Below the pieces are notes generated by a model, which saw only the letters and a list, made by a program, of their open reading frames with translations, had not been told where the DNA came from and ran no database searches. A stretch of DNA of 51,204 nucleotides. Origin: Caulobacter sp. S45 (GTDB lineage: Bacteria > Pseudomonadota > Alphaproteobacteria > Caulobacterales > Caulobacteraceae). The translations under genes were made by a program, and so were the position numbers. Below are positions 5,872-43,425 of this stretch, piece after piece. The stretch is from NCBI RefSeq assembly GCF_903642205.1, contig NZ_CAHJWH010000004.1:1-51204 (forward strand), given 5' to 3'. How positions within the stretch are numbered: position 1 is the stretch's first letter; every line of letters begins with the position of its first letter.

Positions 5872-5885
5872 GGCGGGGTGCGTTC

Positions 5886-6004
5886 GCCTCGTCCTTCGAC
5901 AAGCTCAGGATGAGGCGAAAGGCTGGTGACGCGGGATACTCGAATGGCGGCTTCGCGGACACGCCCGCCATCAGCCTCATCCTGAGCCCGTCGAAGGACG
6001 AGGC
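5886..6004. repeat. Inverted pair of a REP-like intergenic repeat
   Basis: Two copies of a roughly 30-base element lie head-to-head in the proS-lolC gap: 5886-5916 (gcctcgtccttcgacaagct...) and, in reverse orientation, 5973-6004, separated by 56 bases. Each copy is itself partly palindromic (GCCTC...GAGGC ends). This is the dispersed repeat that I recognise from caulobacterial and sphingomonad genomes. A related pair is present at 20657-20738. Confidence 0.8.
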
Positions 6005-6025
6005 TGACGCAGGACGCCCACCCTC

Positions 6026-7297
6026 ATGACCGACGCCCCGCCCTTCGGCCTGTGGGAACGCACGCTCGCCTACCGATACCTCCGGGCCAAGCGCAAGGAG
6101 GGCGGGGTGGCGCTGGTCTCCATCATCTCCTTCGTCGGAATATTGCTGGCGGTGGCCACGCTCATCATCGTCATGAGCGTGATGAACGGCTTCCGCACCG
6201 AGCTGGTCGGCCGGATGCTGGGCTTCAACGGCGACGCCTTTGTCACGGGCCCGGCCATCAACGGCCCCGGCCGGCCGGCTCTGCTGCAACGCCTGCGCGC
6301 CATCCCCGGCGTCACCCAGGTGCTGCCGGTGGTGGAGGCCCAGGCTCTGGTGCAGGGGCCCGACCAGGTCTCCGGCGCCATCGTGCGGGGCATCACCGCG
6401 CCGGACCTGAAGGCCACCACCATCGTGTCGGGCAATGTGAAGACCGGCTCGCTCAACGGCTTCGGCGACGGTGACTACGGCGGCGACCTGATTCTGGCCG
6501 GCTCGCGCCTCGGGGAGCAGATAGGGGTCAAGCCGGGCGACAGCCTGACGCTGATCTCGCCGAACGGCGCCGACACCGCCTTCGGCTCCGCCCCCAACCG
6601 CAAGGTCTACACCGTCGATGGCCTCTTCACCGTAGGCATGAGCGAGTACGACCAGAGCTTCATCTACATGCCGCTGCCTCAGGCCCAGCTGTTCTTCGGG
6701 CGCGGCGATACGGTGGACACCATCGAGGTGAACATCGACAACCCCGACCATATCGAGCGCATCCGGCCCCAGATCGAGCAGGCCGCCGGCCCTGCGGCCA
6801 TCGTCACCGACTGGCGAGACCGCAACAAGAGCTACTTCAACGCGCTTGAGGTCGAGCGCGCGGTGATGCGGCTGATCCTGATGCTGATCGTGGCGATCGC
6901 GGTGATGAACATCATCTCAGGCCTGGTCATGCTGGTGAAGAACAAGGGGCGCGACATCGCCATCCTTCGCACCATGGGCGCCAGCCAGGGCTCGATCCTG
7001 CGGGTCTTCTTCCTGTGCGGGGTGCTGATCGGCACCTCGGCCACGGTGGTGGGCCTGGTGCTGGGCTCGCTGTTCTGCATCTTCATCGACCCGATCCAGT
7101 CGCTGGTGGAGGCGATCACCCACCGTTCGCTGTTCAGCGCCGACACTTATTTCCTCTCCCGCATACCTGCCCGGATCGACTGGAGCGAGGTGGCGCTGGT
7201 GATCTTCTGGTCGCTGCTGATGAGCTTCATCGCCACCCTGCCGCCGGCCTGGCGCGCCTCGCGCCTCGATCCGGTGGAGGCGCTGCGGTATGAGTGA
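6026..7297 (+). CDS. Lipoprotein-releasing ABC transporter permease (LolC/LolE type)
   Basis: A 423-residue inner-membrane permease that, with LolD, extracts outer-membrane lipoproteins from the inner membrane and hands them to LolA. It shows the short N-terminal RYLRAKRKEGG stretch, a first membrane segment at about residues 28-52, a large periplasmic domain to about residue 270, and the FtsX-type C-terminal block of three membrane segments ending PAWRASRLDPVEALRYE. Only one permease gene is present, so it probably works as a homodimer, as in other alphaproteobacteria; I leave the C/E symbol open. It overlaps lolD by eight bases. Confidence 0.92.
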   Translation: MTDAPPFGLWERTLAYRYLRAKRKEGGVALVSIISFVGILLAVATLIIVMSVMNGFRTELVGRMLGFNGDAFVTGPAINGPGRPALLQRLRAIPGVTQVLPVVEAQALVQGPDQVSGAIVRGITAPDLKATTIVSGNVKTGSLNGFGDGDYGGDLILAGSRLGEQIGVKPGDSLTLISPNGADTAFGSAPNRKVYTVDGLFTVGMSEYDQSFIYMPLPQAQLFFGRGDTVDTIEVNIDNPDHIERIRPQIEQAAGPAAIVTDWRDRNKSYFNALEVERAVMRLILMLIVAIAVMNIISGLVMLVKNKGRDIAILRTMGASQGSILRVFFLCGVLIGTSATVVGLVLGSLFCIFIDPIQSLVEAITHRSLFSADTYFLSRIPARIDWSEVALVIFWSLLMSFIATLPPAWRASRLDPVEALRYE

Positions 7298-7988
7298 GAC
7301 GCCGCCGGTCCTCTCGCTTCGCGGCGTCACCCGCACCTACACCACCGGCGCCGGGCGCGACCTGACGGTGCTGAAGGGCGTGGACATCGATGTGCACGCC
7401 GGTGAGATCGTCGGCCTGATCGGGCCGTCCGGCTCGGGCAAGTCGAGCCTGCTGCACGCCGCGGGCCTGCTGGAGCACCCCACCGCCGGCCAGGTCGCCG
7501 TCACCGGTGTGGACTGCACTCATTTGAACGACCGGGCGCGCTCGCGCCTGCGGCTGGGCGCGATCGGCTTCGTCTACCAGTTCCACCACCTGCTGGCGGA
7601 GTTCACCGCGCTCGACAACATCGCGCTCCCTCAGATGATCAACGGCGCGCGCCGCCCCGCCGCCCGGGAGCGGGCGCGGGAGCTCCTGACCCAGCTAGGC
7701 CTCGGCGACCGGCTGGACCACCAGCCGGCCCAGCTCTCCGGCGGCGAGCAGCAGCGGGTGGCCATCGCCCGCGCGCTCGCCAACCAGCCGCGCCTGCTCC
7801 TGGCCGATGAGCCCACCGGGAACCTGGACCCGACCACCTCGGGCGCGGTGTTCCAGAGCCTGTTCGACCTGGCGCGGCTGCGCGGCGTGGCGTGTCTGAT
7901 CGCCACCCACAACCTGCATCTGGCCGACTTCATGGACCGGGTGTTCGCGCTGGAGGACGGACGGCTGGTGGAGCAGCGCCGCGCATGA
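7290..7988 (+). CDS. lolD: Lipoprotein-releasing ABC transporter ATPase LolD
   Basis: A 232-residue cytoplasmic ATPase that drives the Lol lipoprotein extractor. Walker A is GPSGSGKSS, the Q-loop region is VYQFHHLLAEFTALDN (the FHHLL stretch is typical of LolD), the signature is LSGGEQQRVAIARAL, Walker B is LLLADEPTGNLD and the switch His lies in IATHN. The start lies inside the 3' end of the permease gene and its stop forms ATGA with the next gene, so three genes are translationally coupled. Confidence 0.95.
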   Translation: MSETPPVLSLRGVTRTYTTGAGRDLTVLKGVDIDVHAGEIVGLIGPSGSGKSSLLHAAGLLEHPTAGQVAVTGVDCTHLNDRARSRLRLGAIGFVYQFHHLLAEFTALDNIALPQMINGARRPAARERARELLTQLGLGDRLDHQPAQLSGGEQQRVAIARALANQPRLLLADEPTGNLDPTTSGAVFQSLFDLARLRGVACLIATHNLHLADFMDRVFALEDGRLVEQRRA

Positions 7989-9184
7989 CCGGCTTCATGT
8001 TCGCCACGGGCGTGGAGAACAGCGCGCCGGTGGTCGCCAGCGGCAAGCGGCTGGATGAGCTTGAGGCCTGCGGTCACTACGCCCGCTGGCGCGAGGACTT
8101 CGACTGCGTGCAGGAGCTCGGCCTGCAGTACCTCCGCTACGGCCCGCAGCTGTTCTCCACCTTCCAGGGCGAGGGCCGCTACGACTGGAGCTTCGCCGAC
8201 GAGACCTTCGGCGAGCTGAGGCGGCGCGGGATCACCCCCATCGCCGATCTGTGCCACTTCGGCGTGCCGGACTGGATCGGCGACTTCCAGAACCCGGACT
8301 TCCCGCGTCTGTTCGAGGGCTATGCGCGGGCGTTCGCGCAGCGCTACCCCTGGGTGCAGCTCTTCACGCCGGTGAACGAGATGTACATCTGCGCCAAGTT
8401 CTCGGCCCTCACCGGCTGGTGGAACGAGCAACTGACCGGCGACCGCAGCTTCGTCACCGCGCTGAAGCACATGGTGCGCGCCAACGTCTTGGCCATGCGC
8501 GCGATCCTGGAGGCGCGCCCCGACGCCATCTTCGTGCAGAGCGAGTCCTCGGAGCACTACCACGCGGTGCTGCCGTCGGCGATCGAGCGCCAGGACTTCC
8601 ACAACCGCCACCGCTTCCTGTCGCTGGACCTGAACTATGGCCACCAGGTGGATGCGGGCATGTACCAGTACCTGCTCGACAACGGCATGACGTGGGAGGA
8701 GTACGACTTCTTCCAACACAATACGACCAAGTCCCGCTGCATCGTCGGCAACGACTACTACCCCGTCTCCGAGCAGTGGGTGCTGCCGGACGGGAGCCTG
8801 GAGAGTGCGCCGGACGTGCTGGGCTACAGCGAGATCACTCGCCAGTACTTCGACCGCTACCGGCTTCCGGTCATGCACACCGAGACCAACTTCGCCGAGG
8901 CCGGCGACGGCGCGGCGGTCCGCTGGCTCCGCAAGGAATTCGCCAACGTGCTCCGCGTGCGCGAGGCGGGCGTGCCGATCCTGGGCTTCACCTGGTACTC
9001 GATCACCGACCAGGTGGACTGGGGCATCATGCTGCGCGAGGCGAGGGGCGTGGTGAACGCCCTGGGGTTGTTCGACCTGAACCGGAAGATCAGGCCGGCG
9101 GGGCAGGCCTACAAGGAACTGGTGGCGGGGTGGCGAGAGCTAACGCCGGTGCAGACGGGCGTGCTGAAGATGGCGACGGGGTGA
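7985..9184 (+). CDS. Glycoside hydrolase family 1-like protein
   Basis: The ATG at 7985 overlaps the lolD stop (ATGA) and gives a 399-residue protein. It reads as a (beta/alpha)8 glycosidase of clan GH-A. Strand 4 ends in TPVNEMY with the probable acid/base Glu132, and strand 7 carries HTETN with the probable nucleophile Glu300. Other GH1-like segments are RYGPQLF, LCHFGVPDW and FTWYSITDQVDWG. There is no signal peptide, so it should be cytoplasmic. Coupling to lolD is odd, because no lipoprotein-export link to a cytosolic beta-glycosidase is known to me. The substrate cannot be read from sequence. The motifs deviate from canonical NEP and ENG, so the family call is good but the activity is uncertain. 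Confidence 0.78.
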   Translation: MTGFMFATGVENSAPVVASGKRLDELEACGHYARWREDFDCVQELGLQYLRYGPQLFSTFQGEGRYDWSFADETFGELRRRGITPIADLCHFGVPDWIGDFQNPDFPRLFEGYARAFAQRYPWVQLFTPVNEMYICAKFSALTGWWNEQLTGDRSFVTALKHMVRANVLAMRAILEARPDAIFVQSESSEHYHAVLPSAIERQDFHNRHRFLSLDLNYGHQVDAGMYQYLLDNGMTWEEYDFFQHNTTKSRCIVGNDYYPVSEQWVLPDGSLESAPDVLGYSEITRQYFDRYRLPVMHTETNFAEAGDGAAVRWLRKEFANVLRVREAGVPILGFTWYSITDQVDWGIMLREARGVVNALGLFDLNRKIRPAGQAYKELVAGWRELTPVQTGVLKMATG

Positions 9185-9251
9185 CCGCGCGCCCTGCAGG
9201 ATGTGGTGACTGCCAGCTCCAACCCAGGATGGGGGCGGTTTTTTGAGCTTT

Positions 9252-10385
9252 CTAAGCCGGGCAGATCGGACGAGGAAAGTCGCCCTTGACTGCCTGGTCC
9301 AGCAAGGAGACAAACCTTGAGGTGTCTGCAAAATAATTTGGATAGGCACGGTACAGGGCAGAAAGAGAGTCAACTGAGAGCAGAACGACTTGAACATCGT
9401 CTTCTTCTACTAATTCTGACTCGATCCGGTCACGCCACAGATTAGCAGTTCTAGACTGCTTAGGTCCGAATGATTGCAATCTGACGTTTTGATTTTTAAT
9501 GTCGAGTCTAAGCACAAAAAACTTGTACTCGCGCATGTCACGAACGCCCTCTAGAGTAGCTTTATACGCACCCAGAGTATTCTTTACCCTTAAGAGGTCT
9601 GATAGCTCTCGTATTTCACTCACCGGTTCATCTCTATTTTGCGGTGTACCTTCGACTGTGACACAACCTTCGATCGACGCAATTGCTGCACTCATCAGCG
9701 CAAAAAATCGTCTCCAATCCCTTTCTCCACGGTTAGACTTTATCGCTTGTTTTGTAAAAAGATCGACGGTCTCTACCGCTGTTGCCCAGGCGTGTTGTAG
9801 TTCCGTTCGAAGCTGCACCTCAATCCTAAGCCCATCGTAGCAAGCAGTTTTATCTTTACCCTTAAAGCTATAAACTAAGCGCAATGATCTATATCCATCC
9901 GGCTTAGGTTCGTTCATATAGTCATTCACTTTGTGGAGCGTGTGCGCAAATATGCTTTTATCATATCGATCGCGCATATTTTGCAGAGAGTTAATAGAGG
10001 AGAGAACTGCTCTACATCCTCCAATATCCTGCATCTGCACAAGTCGCATTGTGTCCTTGTATACCAGCTTGCGGTGTATAGACTCAATTCTCTTGATCCT
10101 TTGAGCTACTGTCACCTCAGCCTCTACGTGACGAACCTTCCGTCTGAGGTCGATCTGCATAGCGTTCAGCGGAAAGCTGTGTGCTGAACGCCACCTGTTA
10201 ACGAGGTCGTAGTCTGGGCCGGCAGGAAGCGGCAATGGAGACGTCCGCAATGAGCGGGCAGCAACATTAACTGCTTTTATGTCAGTGGGAGGGGTGGTCC
10301 AGTTCGCCATAACGTCATTGCCACTAGCCAATCGCGGCCTAATGGAACTGATGTTATCACTCCAGTCAACGCTTGGGTATGCCAT
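9252..10385 (-). CDS. Orphan RelA/SpoT-domain protein
   Basis: A 377-residue protein whose residues about 60-210 form a RelA/SpoT nucleotidyltransferase domain. The motifs in order are VAQRIKRIESIHRKL, QMQDIGGCRAV (metal-binding Asp120), KPDGYRSLR (164-169) and RIEVQLRTELQHAWATAVE (catalytic-type Glu189). Where the family normally has GYRSLH, this protein has Arg at 169. No HD hydrolase, TGS or ACT domain is present, so it is not a housekeeping Rel. Residues about 211-377 are a C-terminal extension with no motif I recognise. The gene is much AT-richer than its surroundings, which suggests transfer. It may make (p)ppGpp-type alarmones, or be a toxic small alarmone synthetase that pyrophosphorylates tRNA; sequence alone does not decide. 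No separate antitoxin gene is visible. Confidence 0.85.
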   Translation of the reverse strand: MAYPSVDWSDNISSIRPRLASGNDVMANWTTPPTDIKAVNVAARSLRTSPLPLPAGPDYDLVNRWRSAHSFPLNAMQIDLRRKVRHVEAEVTVAQRIKRIESIHRKLVYKDTMRLVQMQDIGGCRAVLSSINSLQNMRDRYDKSIFAHTLHKVNDYMNEPKPDGYRSLRLVYSFKGKDKTACYDGLRIEVQLRTELQHAWATAVETVDLFTKQAIKSNRGERDWRRFFALMSAAIASIEGCVTVEGTPQNRDEPVSEIRELSDLLRVKNTLGAYKATLEGVRDMREYKFFVLRLDIKNQNVRLQSFGPKQSRTANLWRDRIESELVEEDDVQVVLLSVDSLSALYRAYPNYFADTSRFVSLLDQAVKGDFPRPICPA

Positions 10386-10491
10386 CTAGATGTCGCCCAA
10401 TCCGGGGCAGACCATAGCGGCAGCTGCCAGCTGGTGTGGCGTGGATAGTTGGGTCTGGACCGGCCAAAATTGGAGGTCGGCGTGCGATCCT

Positions 10492-10507
10492 TAACTTTGT
10501 CAAGTTA
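10492..10507 (-). promoter_or_regulatory. Palindrome containing a TTGACA hexamer
   Basis: On the minus strand this reads TAACTTGACAAAGTTA, a 6-bp inverted repeat around a four-base centre that contains a perfect -35 hexamer (complement of 10498-10503). It is 107 bases upstream of the RelA/SpoT start codon and just downstream of aspS. I see no convincing -10 at 17 bases, so it may be an operator, part of a non-standard promoter, or a weak hairpin. Confidence 0.35.
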
Positions 10508-10558
10508 GCGCCATCCTGGCTTACGGATTGCTAGAACAAAAAGGCCGCTCGCCGCCGC

Positions 10559-12340
10559 TCAGCCCTTGATCGGCGCGGCGACATGGATGTGCAGTTCCTT
10601 CAGCTGGGCGTCGCTGACGGGGGCGGGGGCTTGCATCATCAGGTCCTGGGCCTGCTGGTTCAGGGGGAAGGCGATGACTTCGCGGATGCTGGCGGCTCCG
10701 GCCAGCAGCATGACGATGCGGTCCACGCCCGGCGCGATGCCGCCGTGGGGGGGCGCGCCGTAGCGGAAGGCGTTCAGCATGCCGCCGAAGCGAGCCTCGA
10801 CTTCGCTCGCAGGATAGCCGGCGACCTCGAAGGCCTTGAGCATGATCTCGGGCTTGTGGTTCCGGATCGCACCGGAAGACAGCTCCACCCCGTTGCAGAC
10901 GATGTCGTACTGATAGGCCAGGATGTCGAGCGGGTCCTGGGAATCCAGCGCCGACATCTCGCCCTGCGGCATGGAGAAGGGGTTGTGGGAGAAGTCGATT
11001 TTCTTGTCGTCTTCGTTCCACTCGTACATGGGGAAGTCGACGATCCAGCAGAACTTGAACTGGTCCTCGTCCACAAGACCGAGATCGGTGCCGACCTTGG
11101 TGCGCGCCAGGCCTGCGAACCGGTAGAAGGCGTCCGGCTCGCCCGCGGCGAAGAACACCGCGTCGCCGGCTCTGAGGTCCAGCTGGGCGCGCAGCGCCTC
11201 GGTGCGCTCGGGGCCGAGGTTCTTGGCCACGGGCCCTGCGCCGGCGTCCTCGCCTTCACGCCAGAAGATGTAGGCCAGGCCCGGCTGGTCCTCGCCCTTG
11301 GCCCAGTCGTTCATGCGGTCGCAGAAGGCGCGCGATCCGCCGCCGGGGGCCGGGATGGCCCAGATCTCCGCCTTCGCGTTCTCCAGGATGCGGGCGAAGA
11401 CGCCGAAGCCGCCGCCGCGAAAATGCTCCGACACCTCGGCCATCTCGATGGGGTTGCGCAGGTCCGGCTTGTCGGAGCCGTACTTGCGCACCGCCTCGCG
11501 GAAGGGGATGTGCGGGAAGGGGCCGACGGTGGCGCGCTTGCCTTGGCCGAATTCCTCGAACACGCCGCGCATCACCGGCTCGATCACGTCGAACACGTCC
11601 TGCTGGGTGACGAAGCTCATCTCCATGTCGAGCTGGTAGAACTCGCCGGGCGAACGGTCGGCCCGGGCCGCCTCGTCCCGGAAGCAGGGTGCGATCTGGA
11701 AGTAGCGGTCGAAGCCCGAGACCATCAGCAGCTGCTTGAACTGCTGGGGCGCCTGGGGCAGGGCGTAGAACTGGCCCGGATAGAGCCGTGACGGCACCAG
11801 GTAGTCGCGCGCGCCTTCGGGCGAGGAGGCGGTGAGGATGGGCGTCTGGAACTCGGTGAAGCCCTGCTCGATCATGCGGCGGCGCAGGCTCGCGATCACC
11901 TGGGAGCGCAGCACGATGCTTCGATGTAGCGTTTCGCGGCGCAGGTCGAGGTAGCGGTACTTCAGCCGCAGCTCCTCGGGGTAGTCCGGCTCGCCGAACA
12001 CCGGCACCGGCAGCTCGGCGGCCTCGGAGAGCACCTCCAAGGCGGTGACGCGAATCTCGATCTCGCCGGTCGGCAAGCTGGGGTTCACCGTCTCGGGCGT
12101 GCGCGCCACCACCTCGCCGTCGACCCGGATCACACTCTCCGCCCGCGTGCGTTCGGCGGCGGCAAAACCGGGCGTCGTGGGCGACAGCACCAGCTGGGTG
12201 ACACCGTAATGGTCGCGCAGGTCGATGAACATCAGCCCGCCGTGGTCGCGCTTCCTGTGCACCCAGCCGGACAGGCGCACGGCGCGCCCCACGTCGGAGG
12301 CGCGGAGCGCACCGCAGGTGTCGGTACGATAGGCGTGCAT
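10559..12340 (-). CDS. aspS: Aspartyl-tRNA synthetase
   Basis: Charges tRNA-Asp. The ATG at 12340 starts [18 protein letters not shown], directly before the OB-fold anticodon domain, and gives 593 residues, the bacterial norm; a longer frame to 12415 is rejected because the extra residues are not family-like. The bacterial-type core shows [21 protein letters not shown], motif 2 with [19 protein letters not shown], and motif 3 with [16 protein letters not shown] near the C-terminus. The GAD insertion domain lies in the middle. Whether it also charges tRNA-Asn cannot be told from the window. It is divergent from hdaA. Confidence 0.95.
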
Positions 12341-12509
12341 GGCGGGGCTTTCGGCGGCCCCGGGGCTATGGCGCGACCGAGGGCGGATCAGGATACGAAG
12401 GCGGGGAAGGGCCATGGGGCCTCCACCATGTCAAGCTTGCCCCCATCGCGGGTGACGCCTCCGCGGCCCTCTGCTAGGCTCGCTGCATGTGCGAAACCGG
12501 AGCCCCTGC

Positions 12510-13169
12510 GTGTCGGCTCAGCTGCGCCTGAGCTTGGAGCGCGCGCCCGACCATGCGCGGGCCGCCTTCGTCGTTTCCGACTCCAACGCTTTGGCCGTGC
12601 AGACGCTGGACAGCTGGCCGGACTGGCGAGGTGGAGCTTTGACACTGGTCGGACCTCTTGGCTCGGGCAAGACCCACCTCGCAGCGATCTGGGCTGAGCG
12701 CGTAGGCGCGGCGGCCTTTCCGGTGGACGGCGTGGACATGGTGGGCGAGGGCCCGGTTCTGGTCGAGGACGCCGAGGGCCGCCTGCCCGACGAGACCCTG
12801 TTCCACCTCCTGAACGTCTCGGCGCGCCCGGGCGGCGGCCTGCTGCTCACCTCCCGCGTCGCTCCGAGCCTTTGGCCCGTGCGCCTGCCCGACCTCCGCT
12901 CGCGCCTGAACGCCCTGCCGACCGCACGGATCGAGGAGCCGGACGACACGGTGTTGGGCGCCATGCTCGACAAGTTCTTCTTCGAGCGGAACATCCGCCC
13001 GAGCGCGGAGCTTCTCGCCTACCTCGTCCGGCGCATCGAGCGCTCGGCCCAGAGCGCCCAGTCGGTTGTCGCGCGCCTGGACGAGGCGGCCGACGCCACC
13101 GGCCGCCGGGTCTCCCGCAGCCTGGCGCGCCTGATGCTCGGCGAGGAACAGGTCGAGGCCGTCCCATGA
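12510..13169 (+). CDS. hdaA: DnaA-related regulatory ATPase HdaA
   Basis: A 219-residue DnaA-like AAA+ protein. In Caulobacter HdaA, with the DNA-polymerase sliding clamp, promotes hydrolysis of DnaA-bound ATP and so limits replication initiation. I choose the GTG at 12510 because it places a QLRLSL clamp-binding-type motif at the very N-terminus and has GGAG seven bases upstream; a GTG at 12489 is in frame but lacks a binding site. Walker A is [11 protein letters not shown] at about residues 47-57. The Walker B region (GPVLVEDAE) and the segment [16 protein letters not shown] match Hda proteins. The position just upstream of ppk1 matches the Caulobacter order. Confidence 0.88.
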
Positions 13170-13221
13170 GGCGGCTTCAGTTCATGAAAGGGTCGCGTCA
13201 AGCGGCATAAATGCTTTGGAT

Positions 13222-15444
13222 ATGAGCGAGATCGTCCACCTGGAGCCCGAGGCGGCGCCTGCGCCGCCGGCGCCGAAGTCGGCTGAGCCGCGGCTCGACG
13301 TCGCCCTGCTGAATTCTACAGAGCGCTTCTTCAACCGCGAACTCTCTTGGCTGCGCTTCAACGAGCGGGTGCTGGAGGAGAGCGAGACCAAGCGCCATCC
13401 GCTGTTGGAGCGACTGCGGTTCCTCTCCATCTCGGCCAGCAACCTGGACGAGTTCTACATGGTGCGCATCGCGGGCCTTAAGGGTCAGGTGCGCGAGGGC
13501 GTGCGGGTGGTGAGCCAGGATGGGCTGACCCCCTCCGAACAGCTCACCCGCGTCAGCGCCGCCGCCACCGAGCTGATGAGCGCCCAGAGCCGCATCTGGC
13601 GCACGCTCCGGGGCGAACTCGCCCGCGAGCGGCTGCACGTGGTGGAGCTGGGCGGGATTACGCCGGCTGACCGGGAGGGGCTGGAGCCGGTCTTTTCCAC
13701 CCAGCTCTTCCCTGTGCTCACGCCGCTGGCCATCGATCCGGCGCACCCCTTCCCCTTCCTGCCGAACCTTGCCTTCGCCCTCGCCTTGAAGCTGAAGCGG
13801 GCCAGCGACGGCAAGACCTTTTTCGCGCTCGTGCCCATGCCGAACCAGGTGCGCCGCTTCTGGCAGCTGAAGCACGGCGAGGCGCGCAAGTCCCCACGTG
13901 CGGAGCGCCGTTTCGTGCCGCTGGAGACCCTGGTGGCCCTGTTCCTGGATCGCCTGTTCCCGGAATGCGAGGTCCAGGCCCAAGGCGTCTTCCAGATCAT
14001 CCGCGATAGCGACGTGGAGTTGGAGGAGGAGGCCGAGGACCTGGTGCGCGAGTTCGAGGCCCTGCTGCGCCAGCGCCGCCGGGGCTCGGTGGTGCGGATC
14101 GCGCTGGAGGCATCCATGCCGCAGGAGCTGCAGGACCTGATCCTGCGCAACCTCCAGTGCCATCCGGAGGAGGTGGTGGTGACCGAGGGCCTGCTTGGCC
14201 TCTCCCAGCTGTCCGAGCTCATCCCCGCCGGGCGCGCCGACCTGAAGTTCACGCCCTACGAGCCCCGCTTCCCCGAACGCGTCCTGGAGCACGGCGGCGA
14301 CTGCTTTGCGGCCATCACCGAAAAGGACATCCTGGTCCACCACCCCTACGAGAGCTTCGATGCCGTGGTGCAGTTCCTGCGCCAGGCCGCGGCCGACCCC
14401 AACGTGCTGGCCATTAAGCAGACGCTCTACCGGACCTCGTCTGACAGCCCCATCGTCGCCGCCCTGATCGACGCCGCCGACCGCGGAAAGAACGTGACCG
14501 CGCTGGTGGAGATCAAGGCCCGCTTCGACGAGGCCAACAACCTGAAGTGGGCGCGCGACCTGGAGCGCGCAGGCGTCCACGTCGTCTTCGGCTTCATCGA
14601 GTACAAGACCCACGCCAAGATCAGCATCGTGGTGCGGCGCGAAGGCGAGGCCCTGCAGACCTACTGTCACTTCGGCACCGGCAACTACCACCCGATCACC
14701 GCGCGTGTTTACACCGACCTGTCGCTGTTCACCTGTGACCCCGCCATGGCGCGAGACGCCAGCAAGATCTTCAACTTCATTACCGGCTATGCGCGCCCCG
14801 AGGGGCTGGAGAAGCTCGCCATCTCGCCCATCAGCCTGAAGGCCTCCCTGTTGGCCCAGATCGCGGCCGAGGCCGAGAACGCCAGGTGCGGCAAGCCCGC
14901 GGTGATCTGGGCCAAGCTGAACTCGCTGGTGGATCGCGAGATTATCGATGCGCTTTACGTCGCCAGTCAGGAAGGGGTGCGGATCGACCTGGTGGTGCGC
15001 GGCATCTGCTGCCTGCGCCCCGGTGTGCCGGGCTTGTCGGAGAACATCCACGTCAAGAGCATAGTCGGCCGCTTCCTGGAGCACGGCCGCGTCGTCTGCT
15101 TCGCGAATGGCCGGCCCATGCCTAGCCCAGAGGCGCGGGTCTTCATCTCCTCGGCGGACTGGATGCCGAGGAACCTGGACCGTCGGATCGAGACGCTCGT
15201 GCCCGTGGAGAACCCGACCGTCCACCAGCAGGTGCTGAACCAGATCATGGTCGCCAACCTGAACGACGAGGCCCAGACTTGGCTTCTGGGCTCCGATGGC
15301 GCCTACAAGCGCTACGACACCGCGGGCGTGCGCAAGCCCTTTTCCGCCCACGACTACTTCATGACCAACCCCAGTCTCTCGGGTCGCGGGAAGAACGGAA
15401 AAATCCTGCCGCGGGCGTTCGACCACGTAGGACCACGGCGATAG
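13222..15444 (+). CDS. ppk1: Polyphosphate kinase 1
   Basis: Makes polyphosphate from ATP reversibly. With the ATG at 13222 the protein has 740 residues; a TTG six bases earlier would add two. The N-terminal domain contains [18 protein letters not shown], typical of Ppk1. The autophosphorylated His lies in [11 protein letters not shown] (His483), followed by [11 protein letters not shown]. The second catalytic phospholipase-D-like domain contains [16 protein letters not shown] and, in the C-terminal part, [16 protein letters not shown]. The ppx gene follows on the same strand after a 243-base gap, so synthesis and breakdown of polyphosphate are encoded together. Confidence 0.96.
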
Positions 15445-15687: not shown

Positions 15688-17181
15688 GTGATCTCGTCCG
15701 ACGAGCGCGCCACACGCGACGTCGCCGTGATCGACGTCGGCTCCAACTCCGTGCGTCTGGTGCTCTACCGGCTGGAGGGCCGGGCGATCTGGCAGGTCTA
15801 TAACGAGAAGGTGCTGGCGGGCCTTGGCCGCGATCTCGCCGAGACCGGGCGGCTAGCGCCAGAGGGCGTGGTCGCCGCCATGGCGGCGCTCCGACGATTT
15901 CGCGCCGTGCTGGATGGCGCAGGCCTGGCCCAGGTGTTCTGCGCCGCCACCGCCGCGGTGCGTGAGGCGCGCGATGGCCGGGTCTTCGTGGATCGCGTGC
16001 GCGCCGAGACCGGCTTGGTCATCCGCGTGCTTTCCGGCGAGGAGGAGGCGCACTGTTCTGCGCTCGGCGTCATCGCAGGCCAGCCGACCGCGGAGGGCGT
16101 GGTGGGCGATCTCGGCGGCTCGAGCCTGGAGCTGGTGCGTATCACCGATGGGCGACCGGGCTCGGGGACCACCCTGCCGCTCGGTCCTTTCGCGCTCGGA
16201 GCGCCCGGCCCGATCGACGCACCGGCGCTCAGCCGCACCATCCGCACGCGCTTGGCGGGAGCGGCTCCCGCCTACTCCGCCGCCTGCCTGCATGCGGTGG
16301 GCGGCGCCTGGCGCAACATCGCGCTGATCCACATGGACGCCACCCGCTATCCCCTGCGCATCGTGCATCAGTACGAGATGACCGGGCGCGAGGCGCTGGA
16401 GGCGGCCCGCTTCGTGGCCCAGCAGTCGCGCGCCTCGCTGGAGCGAATGCCGGGCGTCACCAGGAAGCGGGCGGAGACGCTGCCCTACGCCGCGCTCGTC
16501 CTTGAGGCCATGGTGGACACGCTGGGCTTTGCGCGCATCTCCTTTTCAGCCTTCGGCTTGCGTGAGGGCCTGCTGCTGGACGCCATTCCGGCCGACATCC
16601 GCGGGCGCGACCCCTTGGTGGAGGGTTGCGCCGCCATCGGCGTGCGCCAGGGGGCGGCCGAGCACCTGGGGCCGGTGCTGCACGCCTGGCTTGAGCCCAT
16701 GTGGGCGAGCTTGCCGCCGCTGTTCGAGGCCGGACGCGACGCGGTGCTGCTGGCGGCGGCCTGCCGGCTGGCCGACATGGGGGCGCGCCTGCACCCCGAT
16801 CATCGTGCCGATTTGGCCCTCGACCAGGTGCTGCGCGCGCCCACGCCGGGCCAGACCCATGCGGAGCGCGCCTATCTGGCCGCCGCCGTCTTCTCGCGCT
16901 TCACGGCGGCCCAGCCATCGCATCCCTGGCTGGAGCGGTTGCTGTCGCCTGAGCGGGTTCGGCGGGCCCGCGTGCTTGGCGCCGCCATCCGGCTCGGCTG
17001 CGACCTGTCGGGCCGCAGCGCGGGCCTGCTGTCCCAGTCCCGCTTGGCGCTGGATGGCCTCGGCCTGCTGCTCAGCGTTGAGAAGGGCGCGCAGGACCTG
17101 ACGCTGGGCGAACAGACCCGCAAGCGCCTGGCCAGCGTAGCCGGCGTGCTCCAGGTCGAGCCCCGCATTGAGGTGGTCTGA
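15688..17181 (+). CDS. ppx: Exopolyphosphatase, Ppx/GppA family
   Basis: A 497-residue ASKHA-fold phosphatase that degrades polyphosphate and may also act on pppGpp. It begins from a GTG at 15688. The phosphate-binding motif is IDVGSNSVRLVLYR near residue 14, followed by LSGEEEAHCSALG and GVVGDLGGSSLELVRI, the latter being the second phosphate loop. The C-terminal half (about 310-497) corresponds to the HD-like helical domain of longer Ppx proteins. It ends five bases before the convergent pentapeptide gene. Confidence 0.93.
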   Translation: MISSDERATRDVAVIDVGSNSVRLVLYRLEGRAIWQVYNEKVLAGLGRDLAETGRLAPEGVVAAMAALRRFRAVLDGAGLAQVFCAATAAVREARDGRVFVDRVRAETGLVIRVLSGEEEAHCSALGVIAGQPTAEGVVGDLGGSSLELVRITDGRPGSGTTLPLGPFALGAPGPIDAPALSRTIRTRLAGAAPAYSAACLHAVGGAWRNIALIHMDATRYPLRIVHQYEMTGREALEAARFVAQQSRASLERMPGVTRKRAETLPYAALVLEAMVDTLGFARISFSAFGLREGLLLDAIPADIRGRDPLVEGCAAIGVRQGAAEHLGPVLHAWLEPMWASLPPLFEAGRDAVLLAAACRLADMGARLHPDHRADLALDQVLRAPTPGQTHAERAYLAAAVFSRFTAAQPSHPWLERLLSPERVRRARVLGAAIRLGCDLSGRSAGLLSQSRLALDGLGLLLSVEKGAQDLTLGEQTRKRLASVAGVLQVEPRIEVV

Positions 17182-20656: not shown

Positions 20657-20738
20657 GCCTCGTCCAGGGCCTGTCGAAGGCCGAGGCGGCTGACTGCGGC
20701 GGAGCGGCGCCGTCCTTCGGCAGGCTCAGGAGGAGGCC
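20657..20738. repeat. Second inverted pair of the REP-like repeat
   Basis: Copies at 20657-20687 (gcctcgtccagggcctgtcg...) and, in the opposite orientation, 20709-20738 are diverged versions of the elements at 5886-6004, here 21 bases apart. They occupy the 265-base gap between the oxidoreductase gene and tRNA-Trp. The rest of that gap holds no gene I can support. Confidence 0.65.

Positions 20739-41559: not shown

Positions 41560-43425
<1,866 letters not shown>

Follow-up and report, generated by a model that had tools for sequence, protein, structure and literature searches.

The stretch of DNA analysed here, called the window in the following, comprises 51,204 nucleotides of Caulobacter sp. 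S45. On its minus strand, flanked by aspS and by a gene for a family 1 glycosyl hydrolase, lies an intact open reading frame (ORF) with a GC content of 47.8 %, as against 68.1 % in the remainder of the window. The features of the locus are:

9252..10385, minus strand: intact CapRel-like fused toxin-antitoxin ORF, 377 aa from the first ATG
9252..10310, minus strand: probable actual coding sequence, starting at Met26 and encoding about 352 aa (starts of relatives and low pLDDT)
9666..10208, minus strand: toxSYNTH-like catalytic part, residues 60-240 (Pfam, AlphaFold, VIA-align)
9879..9896, minus strand: G-loop motif GYRSLR, residues 164-169; Y165 corresponds to Y155 of CapRel-SJ46 and R169 replaces H159
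9255..9668, minus strand: C-terminal region, residues 240-377, with connecting helices, a three-stranded pseudo-zinc-finger-like antitoxin/sensor domain and a C-terminal anchor
9333..9344, minus strand: YPNY, the YXXY neutralisation motif, residues 348-351 (alignment)
9168..10551, no strand: segment absent from the same-genus genome G001, which has 145 bp between the same flanks

Translation probably begins at Met26 (codon 10310-10308), because the starts of the relatives cluster near the residue aligned with it and because residues 1-21 are of low confidence in the AlphaFold model (nearly all with pLDDT below 50). One promoter-like site was found at the locus where 1.1 are expected, and four terminator-like sites where 1.7 are expected (standard deviation 1.4). 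Short repeats occur on both sides of the gene and may have arisen by chance; examples are a direct repeat of 9 nt without mismatch (9210-9218 and 10424-10432) and an inverted pair of 12 nt that match imperfectly (9221-9232 and 10511-10522). Since the flanks contain only such short repeats, no tRNA gene adjoins the gene and an Rfam scan of the locus gave no match, a mobile element was rejected as a description of the segment. A polyphosphate kinase gene followed by an exopolyphosphatase-like gene (13216-15444 and 15688-17181), situated near the insertion, look like ordinary core genes.

The sole Pfam match of the protein above the cut-off is RelA_SpoT (residues 95-202, E 2.3e-15), and no HD, TGS or ACT domain was matched. 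The first-pass annotation had described an AT-rich lone RelA/SpoT gene, and this description holds. The C-terminal extension which it reported is present as well, but it amounts to about 175 residues after the Pfam match, not the roughly 165 claimed.

Compared with solved structures by phmmer, the protein matches the CapRel entries 7ztb and 9erv over residues 58-363 (E 1.9e-41), a similarity of that length and strength being beyond chance, while small alarmone synthetase structures match the synthetase part alone. Among the PADLOC models the phage defence candidate PDC-S33 is matched over residues 29-366 (E 9.7e-110), followed by two Csx1 models at E of about 0.02; CapRel-SJ46 and four other members tried likewise match PDC-S33 alone at E <= 0.01. 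The AlphaFold model of the whole protein (pLDDT 89.3) agrees with these assignments in the structural comparison which the first-pass annotation had recommended: 7ztb is the best match by VIA-align (Z 26.6 over 279 residues, rmsd 3.4, residues 31-368 aligned), compared with Z of about 15 over 175 residues for the next family, RelQ/RelP. In the VIA-align comparisons of the whole model and of the C-terminal part, FaRel2/ATfaRel2 chains reach no more than Z 6.7 and 3.5. The whole-chain superposition by Foldseek has an rmsd of 9.8, and the model shows the YPNY segment as partly helical (349-352); both fit a domain arrangement that differs from the open crystal, perhaps a closed state.

The catalytic part, which is 49-57 % identical to the seven nearest rows among the matches listed, keeps most of the residues known from CapRel-SJ46, whose functional roles are taken from the available parts of PMC9712102. 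According to the alignment, the arginine pair of the ATP site (R96 and R125, equivalent to R79 and R116), the metal residues (D120 and E189, equivalent to D111 and E180) and the G-loop tyrosine (Y165, equivalent to Y155) are conserved, and A94 aligns with A77. Thus the earlier statement that Asp120 and Glu189 are kept and that the motif reads GYRSLR with Arg169 is correct. Residue 109 is a tyrosine, whereas 65 of 80 rows have an arginine there and 15, the query included, do not. Tyr109 was considered as a second damaged active-site residue and rejected, since four of the six nearest rows also lack the arginine; judged from the sequences, it looks like a trait of the clade.

The C-terminal part is recognisable in its own right. 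When its 138 residues were modelled alone (pLDDT 85.8), CapRel chains were the sole three matches at E <= 0.001, with a VIA-align Z of 9.3 over 127 residues. Both tyrosines of the YXXY motif are kept (Y348 and Y351, equivalent to Y352 and Y355 of CapRel-SJ46), as are the interface residues V334, L335 and A347 (V338, L339 and A351); A341 of CapRel-SJ46 is replaced by Ser337, serine being the commonest letter of the family in that column. Identity to the seven nearest rows among the matches listed is 53-67 % in the neutralisation segment and 25-34 % in the sensor part (266-330). The low value of the latter agrees with PMC9712102, the consulted sections of which describe the pseudo-zinc-finger domain (pseudo-ZFD) as the least conserved region of CapRel.

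In summary of this comparison, the protein shares with CapRel-SJ46 of Salmonella phage SJ46 (7ztb, 9erv; PMC9712102, PMC11578894, as far as these papers were available) the combination of toxSYNTH and pseudo-ZFD in a single ORF, the ATP-site arginines, the G-loop tyrosine, the metal residues, the YXXY motif and the fold. It differs from it by an overall identity of only about 31 %, by Arg169 in place of H159, and by its setting as a lone gene amid core genes, whereas the SJ46 gene is located on a P1-like phage. With FaRel2/ATfaRel2 and other split toxSAS pairs it has the catalytic fold in common, and with FaRel2 in particular the YXXY blocking logic, but in the excerpts of PMC11782079, PMC11559606 and PMC8832971 consulted the antitoxin of those pairs is a separate protein. 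A split pair of the FaRel2 or PhRel type was therefore rejected: the neighbours are the glycosyl hydrolase gene and aspS, and the antitoxin part resides within the same ORF, as the first-pass annotation had proposed when it saw no separate antitoxin gene. Its suggestion of a single-gene fused toxin-antitoxin system is borne out by the CapRel homology, the PDC-S33 match, the fold and the YXXY motif. ORF 9252-10385 is probably a full-length, horizontally acquired relative of CapRel, a phage-sensing fused toxin-antitoxin.

That the gene encodes a housekeeping or stress (p)ppGpp synthetase, with which it has the RelA_SpoT domain in common, has a next to negligible probability. The fold speaks against it, and the NCBIfam models stay far below their cut-offs: the small alarmone synthetase model GTPPhKinYjbM reaches 38.4 bits (cut-off 320) and spoT_relA 34.6 bits (cut-off 499.2). 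A small alarmone synthetase of the RelP/RelQ type, which would not account for the C-terminal CapRel domain, and a long RSH protein (Rel/RelA/SpoT), with RelA_SpoT as the only domain above cut-off, were both rejected. Furthermore, the genome has one further RelA_SpoT match, a separate one of the long RSH type in an 825-aa frame at C131, while the CapRel-like gene is present in a single copy and is found in few genomes of the family.

These counts, each of which includes the own genome and which come from overlapping genome samples, are 13 of 390 genomes in the family, 6 of 398 in the order and 4 of 385 in the class at E <= 1e-15, and 12 of 378 in the phylum at E <= 1e-20. No CapRel match was found in two other genomes of the genus, G001 (85 % complete) and G002. 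In G001 both flanks are conserved (with 91 % identity over window 7725-9167 and 85 % over 10552-13436, corresponding to the glycosyl hydrolase gene and aspS), and the insertion site carries a palindromic repeat which also occurs at window 5876-6005; the 13-kb stretch compared in G002 matches aspS alone. This palindromic repeat, which resembles CTTCGACAAGCTCAGGATGAG, is dispersed and was seen at window 5876-6005 and 20715-20735, and at 1465-1585 of the locus L127. The foreign GC content and the absence from the same site of a same-genus genome identify the gene, on sequence grounds, as horizontally acquired.

The distribution of the relatives points in the same direction. CapRel-like matches were found in 98 plasmid records and 3 phage records, as well as at 20 viral-contig loci, several of which represent the same SJ46-type protein. 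Of the 76 loci that have 3 kb or more of flanking sequence, 67 carry a gene whose GC content is more than 3 points below that of its flanks and none carries one more than 3 points above, as for a gene that moves horizontally. The query falls into a clade of eight rows (SH-aLRT 97) with Caulobacter, Brevundimonas, Sphingobium, Sphingomonas, Pseudomonas and two further rows, and such a mixture of classes fits horizontal transfer; the tree is a quick tree with SH-aLRT support only, from which L032 and L116 were left out. The nearest named rows among the matches listed, 45-49 % identical, are from Caulobacter segnis (L031), Brevundimonas (L064/L026 and L036), Sphingobium (L034), Pseudomonas schmalbachii (L033) and a Sphingomonas bin (L035), and they too are AT-richer genes in GC-rich hosts. 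L026, a protein from a genome of the same family and one of the two further rows in the clade of the query, is identical to the protein of Brevundimonas sp. SH203 (L064). Interrupted CapRel-like genes also exist: L032 from a Gemmobacter bin consists of two ORF fragments, and L132 (G1361) has an internal TAG.

Archaeal titles, mostly of DPANN bins, are attached to 18 loci among the best 80 of at least 569 (L048, L058, L067, L073, L075, L081, L082, L084, L085, L090, L092, L096, L098, L103, L105, L108, L109 and L110), which share a single starred clade of 24 rows with six bacterial or Patescibacteria rows. One of them, L092 (Aenigmatarchaeota), has its CapRel-like gene about 3 kb away from a gene for ATP synthase subunit A of the archaeal type, whose TIGR01043 score of 971.5 bits falls just short of the cut-off (972.15); a gene for a BbrUII/HgiDII restriction enzyme is found at a distance of 1.4 kb. 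In L081, L058 and L075 seven neighbours were scanned, none of which is specifically archaeal, and mis-binning may account for these loci; the CapRel phyla named in the accessible portion of PMC9712102 are bacterial only.

A location within a defence island, as envisaged in the first-pass annotation, did not find support. Only 2 of the 42 other ORFs of the window match a PADLOC model at E <= 1e-10, in both cases mad3; as these are ABC-transporter ATPase genes (7290-7988 and 41560-43425), the matches are no sign of defence. Neither a prophage nor clear defence neighbours were seen at the locus. Among 87 ORFs around the six nearest named relatives, 18 PADLOC models were matched, each by a single ORF; to judge by their names, most of these are presumably helicase models, and the Pfam families (25 of 47 listed) belong mostly to metabolic or core genes, apart from two ORFs with IS1595-type transposase domains. 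A defence-island setting was thus rejected, a result that applies to the window and to these surroundings and not to enrichment across the family.

For the characterised relatives it is described, in the sections of the papers at hand, that the C-terminal domain of CapRel keeps the enzyme autoinhibited at its ATP site, that release is brought about by a phage protein, in CapRel-Ebc by one bound to FtsZ, and that the released enzyme pyrophosphorylates tRNA and translation arrests (PMC9712102, PMC11578894, PMC13423816, PMC11782079, PMC11559606). The same autoinhibition logic is supported for the Caulobacter protein by its sequence and model: before infection the C-terminal domain would block the ATP site. 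By analogy we infer the phage trigger, the tRNA activity and the phage protection. A phage protein would bind the fast-changing C-terminal domain and pull it off; the opened enzyme would then pyrophosphorylate uncharged tRNA at its 3' CCA end, with ATP as the donor, and translation and infection would stop.

The one feature which departs from this design is Arg169. In this column 121 of the 123 compared rows, CapRel-SJ46 included, have histidine, and arginine occurs in the query alone. The remaining row, with aspartate, is L114 (G649, same family), a diverged CapRel-like protein of another clade. The 123 rows consist of 108 with a letter in the column (106 His, 1 Arg and 1 Asp; 109 rows aligned, with L032 entering as two fragments) and of 15 further genes, all with His; 17 such genes were read, of which L131 and L147 were dropped as repeats of L006 and L013, the latter being CapRel-SJ46 itself, as its gene record was compared and found equal. 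The relatives from genome contigs in the residue counts are the best 80 of at least 569, and the counts cover part of the CapRel family. No relative with Arg was found in the 378 phylum genomes or in 7 genomes of the family of G958, nor among the five plasmid and one phage matches read from those listed. The check proposed in the first-pass annotation, whether Arg169 is conserved in close homologues, comes out negative: the nearest named rows all have His. The histidine, situated four residues after the G-loop tyrosine, is therefore near-invariant across the rows and absent here, and it does not appear as a defining feature of CapRel in the portions of the literature consulted; no study of the G-loop histidine in CapRel was found in the literature searched.

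Arg169 is thus a private change, reflecting either recent damage, a tolerated substitution, a base error or a selected, retuning one. By position, as G-loop tyrosine plus four, residue 169 corresponds to His312 of RelSeq, whose G-loop tyrosine is Tyr308 (PMC7983052, as available), and His312 is listed among the residues interacting with the phosphate groups of pppGpp in the part of PMC13299517 consulted, so that the activity of the CapRel-like protein may be weakened. On this basis, and given the private nature of R169, it is conceivable but unlikely that the gene is a CapRel by descent which lost all or part of its activity through a recent H169R change and is now silent or attenuated. The end branch of the query (0.85 changes per site) is the longest of its eight-row clade, and its number of changes at conserved columns is above the median: it differs at 2 of the 46 columns conserved at 95 % or more (169 and 336; tied rank 6 of 80 rows, most of which have 0 or 1 change) and at 4 of 57 at the 90 % level (tied rank 8 of 80). 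However, about 26 changes would be expected at the 46 columns on such a branch without constraint, which argues that selection maintained the gene during most of the time since it diverged, and the ORF is intact. A pseudogene is accordingly disfavoured, even though few of the 80 rows have more changes of this kind. Moreover, arginine can itself bind phosphate.

An error in the assembly, with CGC read for CAC by one transition and an ordinary His CapRel as the real protein, is improbable as well, slightly more so than damage; it would be compatible with a fused CapRel. The two codons are one base apart, the assembly has 265 contigs and no other compared row has Arg, but the ORF shows no stop or frame break.

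A selected Arg169 that alters the pyrophosphate acceptor, towards another set of tRNAs or a nucleotide, has very little probability. With a basic residue in it, the acceptor site could hold the phosphate of another acceptor, and the other catalytic residues checked are kept; on the other hand, no second member with Arg exists among the compared rows, so there is no sign of a maintained Arg variant. The first-pass annotation had suggested that the His-to-Arg change might cause a choice of tRNA instead of GDP or GTP. This is not supported, since histidine is the norm in the family and is also present in CapRel-SJ46, which modifies tRNA, so that a preference for tRNA is not accounted for by the arginine. 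It is equally a long shot that Arg169 is functional in a broader sense, as part of a CapRel without the G-loop histidine whose acceptor choice or catalytic tuning is unlike that of the studied enzymes, perhaps kept for evading a phage counter-measure such as phage-borne tRNAs.

The CapRel-like protein adds one member to a family with a known mechanism, and its design is ordinary apart from Arg169. A complete CapRel-type switch with a fast-diverging sensor part is thereby seen in a core region as one foreign gene, with no phage or defence island evident around it, and the private Arg169 offers a simple test of the role of the near-invariant histidine in tRNA-modifying toxSAS enzymes.
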